Positions 23,344-39,305 of a stretch of DNA of 61,901 nucleotides are shown here, in pieces. The stretch comes from Candidatus Agathobaculum intestinipullorum (lineage in GTDB: Bacteria > Bacillota > Clostridia > Oscillospirales > Butyricicoccaceae): positions 1 to 61,901 of the forward strand of contig DWZQ01000043.1 of NCBI GenBank assembly GCA_019117485.1, written 5' to 3'. Under the pieces are notes generated by a model. It had not been told where the DNA came from, searched no databases, and saw nothing but the letters and a program-made list of their open reading frames with translations. The first letter of the stretch is position 1. Each line of letters starts with the position of its first letter. The translations under genes and the position numbers were made by a program.

Positions 23344-23961
23344 ATGAGAACTGGTAACGAAATGGAATTTTCTGCGCCGTTGTCAGATGAGGCGCTGTGC
23401 CGTTTGGCGCAGCAAGGCAAAGGCACGGCGGCGGAGGATCTGGTCAAACGGTATACCCGTCTGGTGAAAACCTGCGCGCGTCCCTATTTCTTAGTAGGGG
23501 CGGATGCGGAGGACTTGATTCAGGAGGGCATGCTTGGCCTGATGAAGGCGATTCGTGAATTTGACGAAGCGAAAGGCGCACCCTTTGGTGCGTTTGCGCG
23601 GCTGTGTGTGATGCGCAATATTTTTTCCGCAGTGCGCACGGCGGCGTCGCTGAAGCACGATCCGCTCAACCGTTCTGTGTCTATCGATCGACCTCTGTTT
23701 GAAGACCTTGCGGAATCGCACAACCGGGTTACGGCACCGATGGGTGATCCTGAATCGCTGGTGATTGGCAATGAAGAGCGGGAAGAGCTGATCCGTCGGC
23801 TATACGCCCTTTTGTCTGAATTTGAGGCGAAGGTTTTGACGTTGTTTCTCGACGGGCTTTCCTATGAAGAAATGTCGGAAACGCTGCATAAGCCGGTCAA
23901 ATCTGTGGATAATGCCATTCAGCGCATCAAGCGGAAATCGGCAGCTATCAAACCCCAATAG
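23344..23961 (+). CDS. sigH: RNA polymerase sigma-H factor
   Basis: About 205 residues. Sigma-70 region 2 includes FLVGADAEDLIQEGMLGLMKAIREFDEAKG, the hallmark of the stationary-phase/sporulation SigH group. Region 4 has LFLDGLSYEEMSETL and the recognition helix KSVDNAIQRIKRK. In Bacillus SigH directs early sporulation genes. The start is unsettled: ATG 23332 lies inside the -10 box, so only ATG 23344 (3-5 nt leader) or ATG 23362 (about 22 nt leader) are possible, and neither has a good Shine-Dalgarno. A TTG at 23305 is part of the promoter. Confidence 0.92.
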   Translation: MRTGNEMEFSAPLSDEALCRLAQQGKGTAAEDLVKRYTRLVKTCARPYFLVGADAEDLIQEGMLGLMKAIREFDEAKGAPFGAFARLCVMRNIFSAVRTAASLKHDPLNRSVSIDRPLFEDLAESHNRVTAPMGDPESLVIGNEEREELIRRLYALLSEFEAKVLTLFLDGLSYEEMSETLHKPVKSVDNAIQRIKRKSAAIKPQ

Positions 23962-34709: not shown

Positions 34710-34746
34710 GTTTTGACCTGAGCGACCGCCAAAGGAGGTGCGTCTG

Positions 34747-35661
34747 GTGAAGAAACTGCTTTGGATTGTCAATCCCCATGCCGGCCGCGGCGCGATGAGC
34801 GGCAAGGTCATCGGCTGCGTGACTGCTTTTCAGCAGGCCGGATATGATGTGACGCTGTATGTCACACAGGGCGCACAGGACGCGACCCGCGTCGCGCGCG
34901 AGCGGGCAGGGGAGTTCGACCGCATTATCTGTGCAGGCGGCGATGGCACGCTCAATGAGGTCGTGACCGGTCTGATGGAGGCTCCGGTGCGGCCGTCTTT
35001 GGGCTATATCCCGGCCGGTACGACCAACGACTTTGCACAGAGTTTGGATATTCCCAAGGTACCGGCTGAGGCGGCGGTGATCGCGGCGGGCGATCGGTTA
35101 CAGGCGCTTGATATCGGACGGTTTAACGACCGGTATTTTAACTATATCGCAGCGTTCGGCGTGTTTACCGAGGTGTCCTATGCTACGCCCCAGCAATCGA
35201 AGAATATTTTCGGTCGTGCGGCCTATATCTTTGAGGGCGTCAAGGCGCTGACCAACATCAAGGCATATCACATCCGCGTTGAGAGTGAAGAAGTCACTAT
35301 CGAGGATGATTTCATCTACGGCATGGTGACAAATTCCGTTTCGGTCGGCGGATTCAAGGGAATCACGCCGGATGGCGTTGCGCTGGACGACGGGCTGCAC
35401 GAGGTGCTGCTCGTCTATCCGGTGGAAAACCCGATGGAACTGCAATGGCTGGTCAATGATTTGCTGACGCATAATATGGAATCGACGCGGTTTGTCTATT
35501 TCCGTACCGCGCATATCACATTTGACGCGGTGGATGAGATCCCGTGGACGCTGGATGGCGAGTTTGGCGGCGCGGTGCAGCGTGCGGAGATCACCAACTG
35601 CGCCCGCGCGATCACTTTCGCCACGGGCGAGGGCAAAAAGCAGGAGCTGTCGGACAAGTGA
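34747..35661 (+). CDS. Diacylglycerol/lipid kinase family protein (YegS/DagK-like)
   Basis: 304 residues. The diacylglycerol-kinase catalytic domain has WIVNPHAGRG (~7-16), the nucleotide motif AGGDGTLNEV (~59-68) and PAGTTNDFA (~89-97), followed by a C-terminal beta-sandwich with LDDGLHEV. It probably phosphorylates diacylglycerol at the membrane for lipid recycling, which matters where lipoteichoic acid is made; the exact lipid is not certain. GTG 34747 follows AAAGGAGGTG; a GTG at 34738 is part of that site. Likely co-transcribed with htpG. Confidence 0.92.
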   Translation: MKKLLWIVNPHAGRGAMSGKVIGCVTAFQQAGYDVTLYVTQGAQDATRVARERAGEFDRIICAGGDGTLNEVVTGLMEAPVRPSLGYIPAGTTNDFAQSLDIPKVPAEAAVIAAGDRLQALDIGRFNDRYFNYIAAFGVFTEVSYATPQQSKNIFGRAAYIFEGVKALTNIKAYHIRVESEEVTIEDDFIYGMVTNSVSVGGFKGITPDGVALDDGLHEVLLVYPVENPMELQWLVNDLLTHNMESTRFVYFRTAHITFDAVDEIPWTLDGEFGGAVQRAEITNCARAITFATGEGKKQELSDK

Positions 35662-35756
35662 CGGAAACCACTTCTATAAAATTCATTCCCAGTGGGGCTT
35701 TATATGCACCACTTGCCTGTCGTCTGCTTATATTGATGACAGGAGCGTGATGCGCT

Positions 35757-35903
35757 ATGTTTTGTCGCTGTCAGGCGATTGGCCTTGCCGCCCTCTGTCT
35801 GGGGTTGGGCCTGCTGCTCGGCGGGTTGCTTGGGCTGTGCCTGCCGGTTTGGCCCGTGGCGCTGGCGCTGATTGCCGCAGGCTGGTTCCTGCTTCGCTGT
35901 TAA
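35757..35903 (+). CDS. Small membrane peptide (48 aa) upstream of spoVM-like gene
   Basis: ATG 35757, with AGGAG at 35741-35745. After MFCRCQAIG the product is two hydrophobic stretches (~9-29 and ~32-46, Leu/Gly/Ala-rich) ending FLLRC. It has three Cys in the first 14 residues. No family is recognised. It stops 18 nt before the spoVM-like start, so the two are probably co-transcribed. An overlapping frame from ATG 35750 is an alternative but gives an Arg/Gly-rich product without membrane character. Confidence 0.6.
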   Translation: MFCRCQAIGLAALCLGLGLLLGGLLGLCLPVWPVALALIAAGWFLLRC

Positions 35904-35921
35904 TGGGAGGTGGACGATTTG

Positions 35922-35993
35922 ATGAAGGTTGTCGTTTGGAAGAGTCCGAAATACTTGCGCGGTATTCTGTGTAAGCTGTTCCATGTGGAGTGA
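35922..35993 (+). CDS. spoVM: Stage V sporulation protein M-like peptide (SpoVM)
   Basis: 23 residues beginning MKVVVWKSPK and continuing YLRGILCKLF, with a strong GGGAGGTGG ribosome site 8 nt before ATG 35922. From memory B. subtilis SpoVM (26 aa) starts MKFYTIKLPKFLGGIV. The two align without gaps, sharing K2, K7, P9, K10, L12, G14 and I15. Pro9 is the residue needed for recognising convex membrane. SpoVM is an amphipathic helix that marks the forespore surface and anchors SpoIVA for coat assembly. Too short for automatic calling. The C-terminal tail (HVE) differs from the basic end in Bacillus. Confidence 0.75.
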   Translation: MKVVVWKSPKYLRGILCKLFHVE

Positions 35994-36249: not shown

Positions 36250-36483
36250 ATGATGCAGCACAAGCCTTTGACACCACAGCAGAAGGACGCCGCAGAAAAA
36301 GTTTTCACATGGATGTCCTGCTCGACAGCAGCTTCGGTAAACGGCGATACCGGCAACGAAGAAGATGGACAGCCAGTCGGCGTGGCGCTGCCGCCGCATG
36401 AGCGGGGCTGCGGCCATGCGCATCCGATGCGCGGTACGAACCATGAGGATTTGCGCGAATGGTGTACGCGGCACGAAAGCTGA
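36250..36483 (+). CDS. Hypothetical 77-aa hydrophilic protein
   Basis: ATG 36250 (or 36253) follows GGGAGGGA. The product is soluble, with DAAEKVFTWMSCSTAAS near the start and a His/Cys-rich second half (HERGCGHAHPM, WCTRHES). No domain is recognised. Codon use resembles neighbouring genes, and a GC hairpin follows the stop. The opposite strand also has an open frame here, but it lacks a ribosome site and runs over the next promoter. Confidence 0.45.
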   Translation: MMQHKPLTPQQKDAAEKVFTWMSCSTAASVNGDTGNEEDGQPVGVALPPHERGCGHAHPMRGTNHEDLREWCTRHES

Positions 36484-36723: not shown

Positions 36724-37023
36724 ATGTCTGTGTTTTGGCAGTCTGTTCTGGCGGTATTTGCAGCTGTCGGTTTTTACACCCTGTTGCATACGGTTTATGA
36801 GGCGGTTGCAAGCCGTGTGCTGCGCATGCATGGCACGGCCGAGCTGATGCTGTACGGCGATGGTGCAGATGCGGCCAGCGAGCAGCTGATCCGCATTGCG
36901 CTGCGCATGCGGCGGCAGTACCTACCGGGCATGACGATCACGTTTGTGGAAATCGGCAACGGAAAAGAGCCGAATGCGGCACGGCATTTGGCAGCACGGC
37001 AGGATATTATGTATCTGGAATAA
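36724..37023 (+). CDS. Hypothetical membrane-anchored 99-aa protein
   Basis: ATG 36724 has AGGAGGGGAGG upstream. One N-terminal membrane helix (about residues 5-25, VLAVFAAVGFYTLLHTVY) is followed by a cytoplasmic alpha/beta domain (ELMLYGDGADAASEQLIRIALRMR ... MTITFVEIGNG). No named family is recognised. It precedes recD2 by 14 nt and shares its transcript. Confidence 0.75.
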   Translation: MSVFWQSVLAVFAAVGFYTLLHTVYEAVASRVLRMHGTAELMLYGDGADAASEQLIRIALRMRRQYLPGMTITFVEIGNGKEPNAARHLAARQDIMYLE

Positions 37024-37037
37024 GGGAAAAGGAACGG

Positions 37038-39305
37038 TTGCGTTTGGACGAGAAGGAATATTTGCTCATCCGTGGTACGGTGGAGCAGGTTGTGTTTTAT
37101 AATCAGGAAAACGGGTACGCCGTGCTGCGTTTGCTTGCGCAGGACGGCGCGGAGGTGACCGCGACGGGGGTATTCCCCAATATTGGGCTGGGGGAGGAGG
37201 TCATCCTGACCGGCGTCTGGGTGACCCACCCTTCCTACGGCGAACAGTTTACAACAGAGGCATTCGAGCGCCGTTTGCCCAGTTCGGTGCGCGGCATCGC
37301 GGAGTATCTGGGTTCGGGCGTTATCCGCGGTGTGGGGCCGAGGCTCGCCAGCCGTATTGCGGAAAAATTCAGGGAGGACACCTTCGAGGTGCTCGCCAAC
37401 GAGCCTGAACGGTTGACCGATATCCGTGGCATCACGGTGAAAAAGGCGCGTGAGATCGGCCGCCAATTTACCGAGCAGAACGAAATGCGCCTGCTGATGG
37501 ATTTTTTGGCGGAGCACGCGTTGCCGGTGTCGTTAACGCCGTTGCTGTATAAGCGCCTGCATGACAGCGCGATAGACGCGCTGTGTGAAAACCCCTATCT
37601 GCTATGCGACCCGTATTACGATGTCGATTTCCGGCTCGCGGACGGACTTGCGATGGAGCTGGGATTATCGCTCTTATCGGATGAGCGCGCGGACGCGGGT
37701 GTGCAGTATACGTTGGTGTACAATCTGGACAATGGACATACGTTTATCCCGGTAGAAAAGCTGACGCGTGCCGTCTGCATGCTTTTATCGGATGACGAGG
37801 TTGTATTTGACGAAGCCCGTGCGCTGGCCAGCATTGAACGCCTGCGCGACAAAGGGCGGCTGGTGTGTGAGCATATCGCGGGGCGGGATGCCGTTTACCT
37901 GCGCGATATGCACGATGCCGAGGCTTATCTGGCAGAAATGCTTGGCAGCATGGCGGAACACAGCTACCAATACGATTTTGACGTAGATGCATTGTTACAG
38001 GCGCTTGTGATGGATAGTCCGGTAAACTATTCGGACAAGCAGCAGCTTGCAATCGCCACCGCGGCGCGCAACGGGCTGGTCATTCTGACCGGTGGGCCGG
38101 GTACAGGCAAAACGACGACCGTGCGCGGCATTTTGCAGGTGTTTGAGGCGCTTGGGCTAAATACGTTGCTTGCAGCGCCCACCGGCCGGGCGGCTAAGCG
38201 GCTGTCCGACCTGACTGGTATGGAGGCCAAAACCATCCACCGGCTGCTGGAAGCCGGCTTTGGCCCGGGCGGACGCACGGCTTTCGCCCGCAACCTGACC
38301 AACCCGCTTGAGTGCGACGCAGTCATTTTGGACGAGGTTTCGATGGTCGATATCACGCTGATGCAGGCGATGCTGTCCGCGCTGCCATACGGGGCGCGTC
38401 TGGTGCTGGTGGGCGATGCAGATCAGCTGCCACCGGTCGGGCCGGGGAACTTCCTGCGTGACCTGATTACCTCGCAGCGCGTGCCGACCATCCAGCTGAC
38501 CGAGATTTTCCGGCAGGCGCAGCAATCCGATATCGTTATGAACGCACACGCGGTCAATGAGGGGCGGATGCCTGTGCCGTCCGGCGCGGACGGCGACTTT
38601 TTCCTGATGCGCCGCAGCGATTCCGCTGCCGTTATCGAAACGGTGGCGCAGCTGTGCGCGACGCGCCTGCCGGCGCACTATGGGCTTTCCCCTTCGCAAA
38701 TCCAAGTGCTCTCGCCGGCCAAACGGCAGGGGAGCGGCACAATTGCCCTGAACCGGCGGTTACAGCAGGCGCTCAATCCGCCGGATGAGAACAAGTTGGA
38801 AAAACGCTTTGGCGATTGGGTATTCCGCGAGGGCGACCGCGTCATGCAGGTGCGGAACAATTATGATATTATTTGGGAAAAGGGCGCGGATGGCGAGCAG
38901 GGAACCGGCGTTTTTAACGGCGACGTGGGCGAGATCGTGCAGATATTCCCACGGCAGGAGTGCATGATCGTGCGGTTTGACGACCGTCTGGCGACCTATA
39001 CATACGATATGCTGGGCGAGTTGGAGCTGGCATACGCCGTTACTGTCCATAAATCGCAGGGCAGCGAATTCGACGCGGTTGTGCTCGCGTTATCGGATGG
39101 GCTGCCGCGCAAATTGCTCACGCGCAATATTTTGTACACTGCGATCACGCGTGCCAAGCAACTTCTGGTGATTGTGGGCAGTCAGGACGTAGTGGCCTAT
39201 ATGGTAGGCAATAACCAGAAAGGCAGACGGTATAGCGCGTTGCGCGCGCGGCTGCGGGGCGAGATGCTGCCCCATCAGGCGGAAACCGGGGCGAAAGCCG
39301 AGTAA
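37038..39305 (+). CDS. recD2: ATP-dependent DNA helicase RecD2
   Basis: 755 residues, the long RecD2 form found in bacteria without RecBCD. An N-terminal OB-like domain is followed by helix-hairpin-helix motifs (GVIRGVGPRLASRIAEKF; LTDIRGITVKKAREIG), the SF1B helicase core with Walker A GGPGTGKTTT (~352) and Walker B VILDEVSMVD, GDADQLPPVGPG, and motif VI TAITRAK near the end. It unwinds 5'-3' and aids repair and fork stability. TTG 37038 or TTG 37044 is the start; AAGGA at 37029-37033 serves either. Confidence 0.95.
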   Translation: MRLDEKEYLLIRGTVEQVVFYNQENGYAVLRLLAQDGAEVTATGVFPNIGLGEEVILTGVWVTHPSYGEQFTTEAFERRLPSSVRGIAEYLGSGVIRGVGPRLASRIAEKFREDTFEVLANEPERLTDIRGITVKKAREIGRQFTEQNEMRLLMDFLAEHALPVSLTPLLYKRLHDSAIDALCENPYLLCDPYYDVDFRLADGLAMELGLSLLSDERADAGVQYTLVYNLDNGHTFIPVEKLTRAVCMLLSDDEVVFDEARALASIERLRDKGRLVCEHIAGRDAVYLRDMHDAEAYLAEMLGSMAEHSYQYDFDVDALLQALVMDSPVNYSDKQQLAIATAARNGLVILTGGPGTGKTTTVRGILQVFEALGLNTLLAAPTGRAAKRLSDLTGMEAKTIHRLLEAGFGPGGRTAFARNLTNPLECDAVILDEVSMVDITLMQAMLSALPYGARLVLVGDADQLPPVGPGNFLRDLITSQRVPTIQLTEIFRQAQQSDIVMNAHAVNEGRMPVPSGADGDFFLMRRSDSAAVIETVAQLCATRLPAHYGLSPSQIQVLSPAKRQGSGTIALNRRLQQALNPPDENKLEKRFGDWVFREGDRVMQVRNNYDIIWEKGADGEQGTGVFNGDVGEIVQIFPRQECMIVRFDDRLATYTYDMLGELELAYAVTVHKSQGSEFDAVVLALSDGLPRKLLTRNILYTAITRAKQLLVIVGSQDVVAYMVGNNQKGRRYSALRARLRGEMLPHQAETGAKAE

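Follow-up and report, generated by a model that had tools for sequence, protein, structure and literature searches.

The 23-codon reading frame at positions 35922-35993 of the window, the window being the whole stretch of 61,901 nucleotides analysed here, is a real, divergent SpoVM which the family model would not name. Very probably it is the spoVM gene of Agathobaculum, placed second in a TM48-spoVM pair, and acts in the SpoIVA coat basement. The peptide itself is a new member of a known family. Of broader reach is its membership in a conserved unit of two genes. The partner, a 48-codon gene (TM48), encodes a predicted hairpin that is uncatalogued; TM48 was absent from the original prediction and adjoins spoVM on its 5′ side. 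Agathobaculum is placed in the Clostridia, family Butyricicoccaceae. The locus comprises the following features:

34738-35661, forward strand: dagK-like lipid kinase gene, upstream neighbour (PF00781)
35708-35735, forward strand: candidate mother-cell promoter of TM48-spoVM, AC - N17 - CTTATATTG
35740-35756, forward strand: leader CAGGAGCGTGATGCGCT before TM48, near-invariant in the genus also as AGGAGCGTGATGCG, holding AGGAG
35757-35903, forward strand: TM48, encoding a predicted two-helix membrane hairpin of 48 aa, MFCRCQAIGLAALCLGLGLLLGGLLGLCLPVWPVALALIAAGWFLLRC, and ending 18 nt before spoVM
35905-35913, forward strand: putative ribosome-binding site of spoVM, GGGAGGTGG, read from the sequence and ending eight bases before the ATG
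35922-35993, forward strand: spoVM, 23 codons from ATG to TGA, encoding the 23-aa peptide MKVVVWKSPKYLRGILCKLFHVE; called from a sub-cut-off NF033436 match, a profile from other genera and pN/pS
37038-39305, forward strand: recD2, downstream neighbour (PF14490, PF13245)

For the identification of the peptide, NCBIfam (18,950 models), Pfam and the PDB were searched. SpoVM_broad (NF033436) was the sole family match of the 23-aa peptide (E 1.9e-4), with positions 1-22 of its 26 aligned and P9 in place, and the 21.4 bits obtained were under the curated cut-off of 31 bits; Pfam gave no match. These scores fit the earlier description of the gene as uncatalogued. The NF033436 cut-off is a naming threshold; it was exceeded in 7 of 60 genomes, and profile A2, a SpoVM profile with genus members added, matched at E<=1e-3 in 51 of the same 60. 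Across the whole source assembly (2.09 Mb, 48 contigs, 95% complete) the frame was the only match to NF033436 at E<=10 (E 0.0075). The SpoVM profile search named beforehand as a check was performed with profile A1, built from 24 SpoVM relatives which were all from other genera, and gave an E value of 1.1e-10 for the 23-codon frame and 0.25 for the runner-up place. A better SpoVM elsewhere, which the original prediction had held to be damaging, was thus turned up by neither search of the 95% complete assembly.

The PDB gave no match in a single-sequence search with the 23-aa peptide, and one match at E<=10 with profile A2, namely the SpoVM structure 2mvh (E 0.025), which we take to be that of B. 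subtilis. The gap-free identities listed in the original prediction (K2, K7, P9, K10, L12, G14 and I15) were all found again, together with M1, against residues 1-19 of 2mvh. Shared with B. subtilis SpoVM are these residues, the length class and the presence of SpoIVA in the genome, whereas the Agathobaculum peptide has 23 instead of 26 residues, Trp6 for Ile6 and a score under the family cut-off. Residues 10-22 had an amphipathic moment of 0.52 against a shuffle mean of 0.32, which is not significant alone (p about 0.10). P9, which is completely conserved in SpoVM according to the available part of PMC5607322, was nearly invariant in the source order, with Ser9 in locus L011. Of the residues to which that paper assigns a function in B. 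subtilis, the Agathobaculum peptide retains K2, P9 and I15; position 6, where the Ile of B. subtilis is reported to be required for SpoIVA binding in that organism, is Trp and was counted against SpoVM function.

The ribosome site GGGAGGTGG, described as strong in the original prediction, was again rated good, and the sequences before spoVM in relatives were read as well. A GTG at 35910 was considered as an alternative start; it is in frame, but the peptides of the relatives start at the ATG. Coding selection in relatives had been named beforehand as decisive, and it was found: codons 2-22 of spoVM gave a pN/pS of 0.107 in 22 Agathobaculum genomes with 21 distinct alleles, a value that is only approximate because synonymous sites are almost saturated (pS 0.72). 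Shifting the reading frame of these bases by one or two positions gave 1.48 and 2.54, and variable sites were located at 20 of the 21 third positions as opposed to 10 first and 6 second positions.

TM48 had a pN/pS of 0.384 in the genus. An AlphaFold2 model from 17 sequences placed helices at residues 2-25 and 31-47 (pLDDT 77, pTM 0.51), and the hydrophobicity of the protein suggests that it sits in the membrane. No Pfam or NCBIfam family matched the window copy over cut-off, nor did any NCBIfam family match two relatives when these were compared with NCBIfam only; ten further copies likewise gave no family over cut-off and showed only weak sub-cut-off matches to unlike families. A TM48 profile searched against the PDB gave nothing at E<=1.

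The distribution of the pair was determined in an order sample of 119 genomes, source genome included, in which SpoVM was called by A2 at E<=1e-3 and TM48 at E<=0.01 by profile A3, built from 24 TM48 copies. SpoVM was present in 95 of the 119 genomes and an A3 match in 89, the best match being directly 5′ of spoVM in 82, which corresponds to 82 of the 95 genomes with a SpoVM match, at a median gap of 23 nt. When the 28 genomes that had given A3 copies or near-identical ones were left out, TM48 still adjoined spoVM in 54 of the 61 remaining TM48-positive genomes. Seven A3-positive genomes were without adjacency: the matches in G017 and G029 were weak and inside long ORFs, and G052, G054, G061, G081 and G106 had no SpoVM match at E<=1e-3. 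A SpoVM-like peptide nevertheless follows TM48 in G054, and G052 and G106 carry TM48 without a visible SpoVM. The TM48 profile match was missing in 12 of the 95 order genomes with SpoVM, two of which (G037 and G057) showed by eye a hydrophobic ORF upstream of spoVM. Where spoVM was not near spoIVA, TM48 was still adjacent in 35 of 43 order genomes.

In a class sample of 148 genomes, A2 found SpoVM at E<=1e-3 in 65 and A3 found TM48 in 49, with one match each; TM48 lay directly 5′ of the SpoVM match in 35 genomes, i.e. 35 of the 49 TM48-positive and 35 of the 65 SpoVM-positive ones. Beyond the source order this held for 32 of 46 TM48 matches (14 families). Among the 65 SpoVM-positive class genomes, 30 lacked a TM48 profile match, and some of these 30 had a hydrophobic hairpin ORF at the same place. 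Fourteen class genomes had TM48 and no SpoVM at E<=1e-3, and a SpoVM-like peptide, chosen by eye, was seen just downstream of TM48 in eight of them (G236, G210, G192, G155, G241, G246, G152 and G197); the ribosome sites were weak in G246 and G197. When these eight peptides and that of G054 were scored with A2, six exceeded the best of 2700 shuffles, and those of G192, G236 and G246 did not. Five of the fourteen genomes belong to one family, f46, and have TM48 with no SpoVM visible, and the TM48 match in G239 looks like chance. As a side observation, the peptides of G210, G155, G246 and G197 (loci L172, L176, L188 and L192) have their proline at position 8, not 9, and perhaps represent a separate SpoVM subtype.

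A profile-free test was additionally performed, in which a hydrophobic ORF of 40-75 codons ending 5-65 nt before spoVM was sought. Of 25 loci each, 18 from the order and 17 from the remainder of the class had such an ORF, while random positions drawn from these loci gave none (0 of 9045 and 0 of 8965, respectively); the threshold had been fixed after the hairpins were seen. Among 15 hairpins from outside the order, 11 had A3 scores higher than any of 3000 shuffled versions, and L089, L091, L099 and L106 fell short of this. Across the phylum, 199 genomes were sampled, and A2 detected SpoVM in 6, four of which lie outside the class; two of these four, from one genus, had a TM48-like ORF, one had a partial one and one had none, the SpoVM match of the last being itself doubtful.

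The original prediction had also taken the gene as support for sporulation and a conserved SpoVM-SpoIVA coat basement in this lineage, and the gene content of the source genome is in agreement with a SpoIVA-containing basement. SpoIVA is encoded at G000:C1:33630-35093 (TIGR02836, 660.4 bits, over cut-off), directly preceded by SipL with two SPOCS domains; as in the SipL-SpoIVA basement of Clostridia the two genes are adjacent here too, but on another contig than spoVM. Upstream of them are dpaA and an ORF which we take to be dpaB-like. Among the 119 order genomes, 89 had spoVM and spoIVA, 6 spoVM only, 12 spoIVA only and 12 neither (Fisher p 2.7e-6, with kinship and incomplete assemblies uncorrected). 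In 46 of the 89 genomes with both, spoVM was within 8 kb of spoIVA, on the same strand in 43 of the 46, and sipL lay between them in 11 of 11 close loci read; in the other 43 the two were farther apart or on different contigs, and some of the different-contig cases may be assembly breaks. A recheck of 11 spoIVA-bearing order genomes without a SpoVM match gave one clear SpoVM (G054) and two doubtful ones (G066 and G078), and no hidden SpoVM was seen in the remaining eight.

Within the genus, 20 genomes including the source genome had both genes placed: spoVM was at most 3.2 kb upstream of spoIVA on the same strand in 12, within 1.8 kb but inverted in one and apart in 7. Sixteen other Agathobaculum genomes were read, seven of which had the order TM48-spoVM-sipL-spoIVA with a dUTPase gene further upstream. 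G011 had the same spoVM-sipL-spoIVA order but a 1.7-kb gap, G008 had the TM48-spoVM unit inverted beside sipL, and no sipL was seen in the sequence read around spoVM for the remaining seven. G019 is in a halfway state, dUTPase-TM48-spoVM being separated by 142 kb from sipL-spoIVA. Butyricicoccus (G028) had TM48-spoVM-sipL-spoIVA. G006, G009 and G017 (Agathobaculum, 78-81% complete) had no match for spoVM (E<=1e-3), spoIVA or SipL and are possibly non-sporulating, or just incomplete assemblies.

A neighbourhood unlike that of Bacillus, where spoVM is near rpmB, had been pointed out beforehand and is borne out by the position of the pair between dagK and recD2. Two ORFs of 77 and 99 codons at 36250-36483 and 36724-37023, between spoVM and recD2, had no Pfam match. 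In comparison with B. subtilis spoVM, Agathobaculum spoVM is not beside rpmB and is preceded by a predicted membrane-hairpin gene; we know of no such gene before spoVM in B. subtilis. The pair persists in differing settings, namely thiN-rpmB, sipL-spoIVA and dagK-recD2. Of 46 class loci, 15 had thiN and rpmB, often accompanied by rpe, yloU and fakA, 12 had rpmB alone, 3 thiN alone, 2 spoIVA and 14 none of these. The arrangement thiN-[TM48-spoVM]-rpmB is best read as the older place, from which the pair would later have moved to sipL-spoIVA in the source order and to dagK-recD2 in the source lineage. In the three f46 loci whose surroundings were read (L177, L180 and L185), TM48 was found between thiN and rpmB.

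A gene pair of this kind has been described in C. difficile, where, according to the available part of PMC5607322, spoVM is co-transcribed under sigma-E with the upstream gene CD25622 (50 aa). The likeness consists in a 50-aa gene directly upstream of spoVM, whereas the C. difficile pair is near rpmB and the Agathobaculum pair lies between dagK and recD2. Judged by place and length, TM48 probably belongs to the CD25622 family. The same source states that C. difficile SpoVM binds SpoIVA, that CD25622 is primarily conserved in, or unique to, Peptostreptococcaceae, with its function not known, and that insertions in it, polar on spoVM, caused the same mild defect as spoVM insertions, from which its authors conclude that CD25622 itself has little impact. 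C. difficile SpoVM is there largely dispensable, its loss costing only about 3- to 5-fold heat resistance, and a redundant factor is given as one possibility for this mild effect. In the literature searched, CD25622 was named in PMC5607322 alone, and the only form of the TM48-spoVM unit that came up was the probable one of C. difficile, thought to be local. Galperin et al. 2012 (PMC3533761), in the part available, describe SpoVM as rarely recognised in annotation and not found in some clostridia, and treat distant clostridial SpoVMs missed by standard searches as an open question.

The candidate promoter has the form GCAC-N17-CTTATATTG in the window and usually TCAC-N17-CTTATACTG in the genus, its AC being kept in 17 of 17 non-redundant genus members. 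In C. difficile, as reported in the available part of PMC3789822, the -10 motifs of sigma-E and sigma-K are very similar and the -35 differs (ATA vs AC). Because of its AC -35 and the resemblance to the shared C. difficile -10, the site looks mother-cell-like with a -35 of sigma-K type. The best sigma-K match in the source genome reached 242 bits, under the cut-off of 298.65, of which B. subtilis, used as the control of the model, fell short too. That match lies in tandem sigma-factor genes at G000:C40:30399-32052, presumably sigE-sigG by gene order. A further sigma-factor-like stretch was noted at 23353-23661 of the window, in a 230-codon frame, with 45 bits to the sigma-K model. A regulon search with the promoter pattern was uninformative: the 6 matches came from 4 genomes, 3 of the matches being at spoVM loci and none in the source genome itself. 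Positions 35742-35756 of the leader had a mean identity of 0.96 in 17 non-redundant genus members, which exceeds every adjacent coding block. The conserved ATG before TM48 was considered as the start of another gene in the +1 frame; this was rejected, since a stop follows after 5-6 codons in 3 of the 22 genus members (G002, G018 and G019).

The following sequence of events is proposed. During sporulation, the promoter-like site (35708-35735) would drive transcription of the pair in the mother cell. SpoVM, folded into a short amphipathic helix kinked at Pro9, would rest on the outer membrane of the forespore, mark this curved surface and help SipL-bound SpoIVA to encase the forespore as coat basement. 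TM48, as a two-helix hairpin, would most likely enter that membrane too and aid in the encasement; it might tether SpoVM or SpoIVA there, for instance, or protect SpoVM against proteolysis. This assistance in coat anchoring is the least certain step and a best guess, to which we give about an even chance.

That the 23-codon frame is a chance look-alike and no gene is extremely improbable: short ORFs are common and the score is below the curated cut-off, but the single NF033436 match in the genome, the E value of the independent A1 profile and the purifying selection rule such an ORF out, and the conserved gene pair also speaks against it. A rival view, which we consider rather unlikely, takes TM48 as a passenger, i.e. 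a leader ORF for translational coupling of spoVM whose own protein has no role. The short median gap to spoVM would suit this, as would the faster evolution of TM48 than of SpoVM and the report, within the available part of PMC5607322, that in C. difficile losing CD25622 had no visible effect beyond that of losing spoVM. Against it, the pN/pS of TM48 is still well under 1, a recognisable hairpin is kept (in the A3 ranking of out-of-order proteins 11 exceeded all shuffles and four did not), and the five f46 genomes, G052 and G106 retain the hairpin without visible SpoVM.

Somewhat short of even, and still a serious possibility, is the alternative that the peptide is a true SpoVM of lesser importance, auxiliary as in C. 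difficile, since TM48 or SipL holds SpoIVA at the membrane. The small loss of heat resistance and the possible redundant factor in C. difficile (PMC5607322, available part) favour it, and so does the absence of a SpoVM match at E<=1e-3 from 12 of the 101 order genomes that carry spoIVA, with the caveat that a divergent SpoVM is seen in G054 and perhaps also in G066 and G078; that SpoVM is under strong purifying selection in the genus argues against this alternative. The preferred reading remains that of a SpoVM acting in the SpoIVA basement as second gene of the pair. Only tentatively, and with the chances rather against it, TM48 may further be seen as an ancient, uncatalogued coat-basement hairpin of Clostridia, perhaps beyond, and as a SpoVM partner outlasting SpoVM loss, as in f46. 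If this were true, some Clostridia could do without SpoVM because TM48 supplies the second anchor that has been missing from the picture.

Independently of its role, TM48 works as a signpost for SpoVM, having led to the eight peptides missed by the SpoVM profile, and its role in spore-coat anchoring becomes testable. The survey points to a wider range, about fourteen class families outside the source order, for a gene believed to be confined to Peptostreptococcaceae, which could itself be one of the fourteen. Two minor observations concern related loci. The f46 loci with a TM48-like gene and no visible SpoVM are L177, L180, L185, L186 and L189, and in L180 a second hydrophobic ORF immediately precedes the TM48-like gene. 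Finally, a 22-codon ORF beginning MRIYVWNPKKRV, equipped with a ribosome site, was found between the end of an rsgA-like gene and sipL in L131 (1868-1936) and L132 (2014-2082), and is perhaps a very divergent SpoVM.
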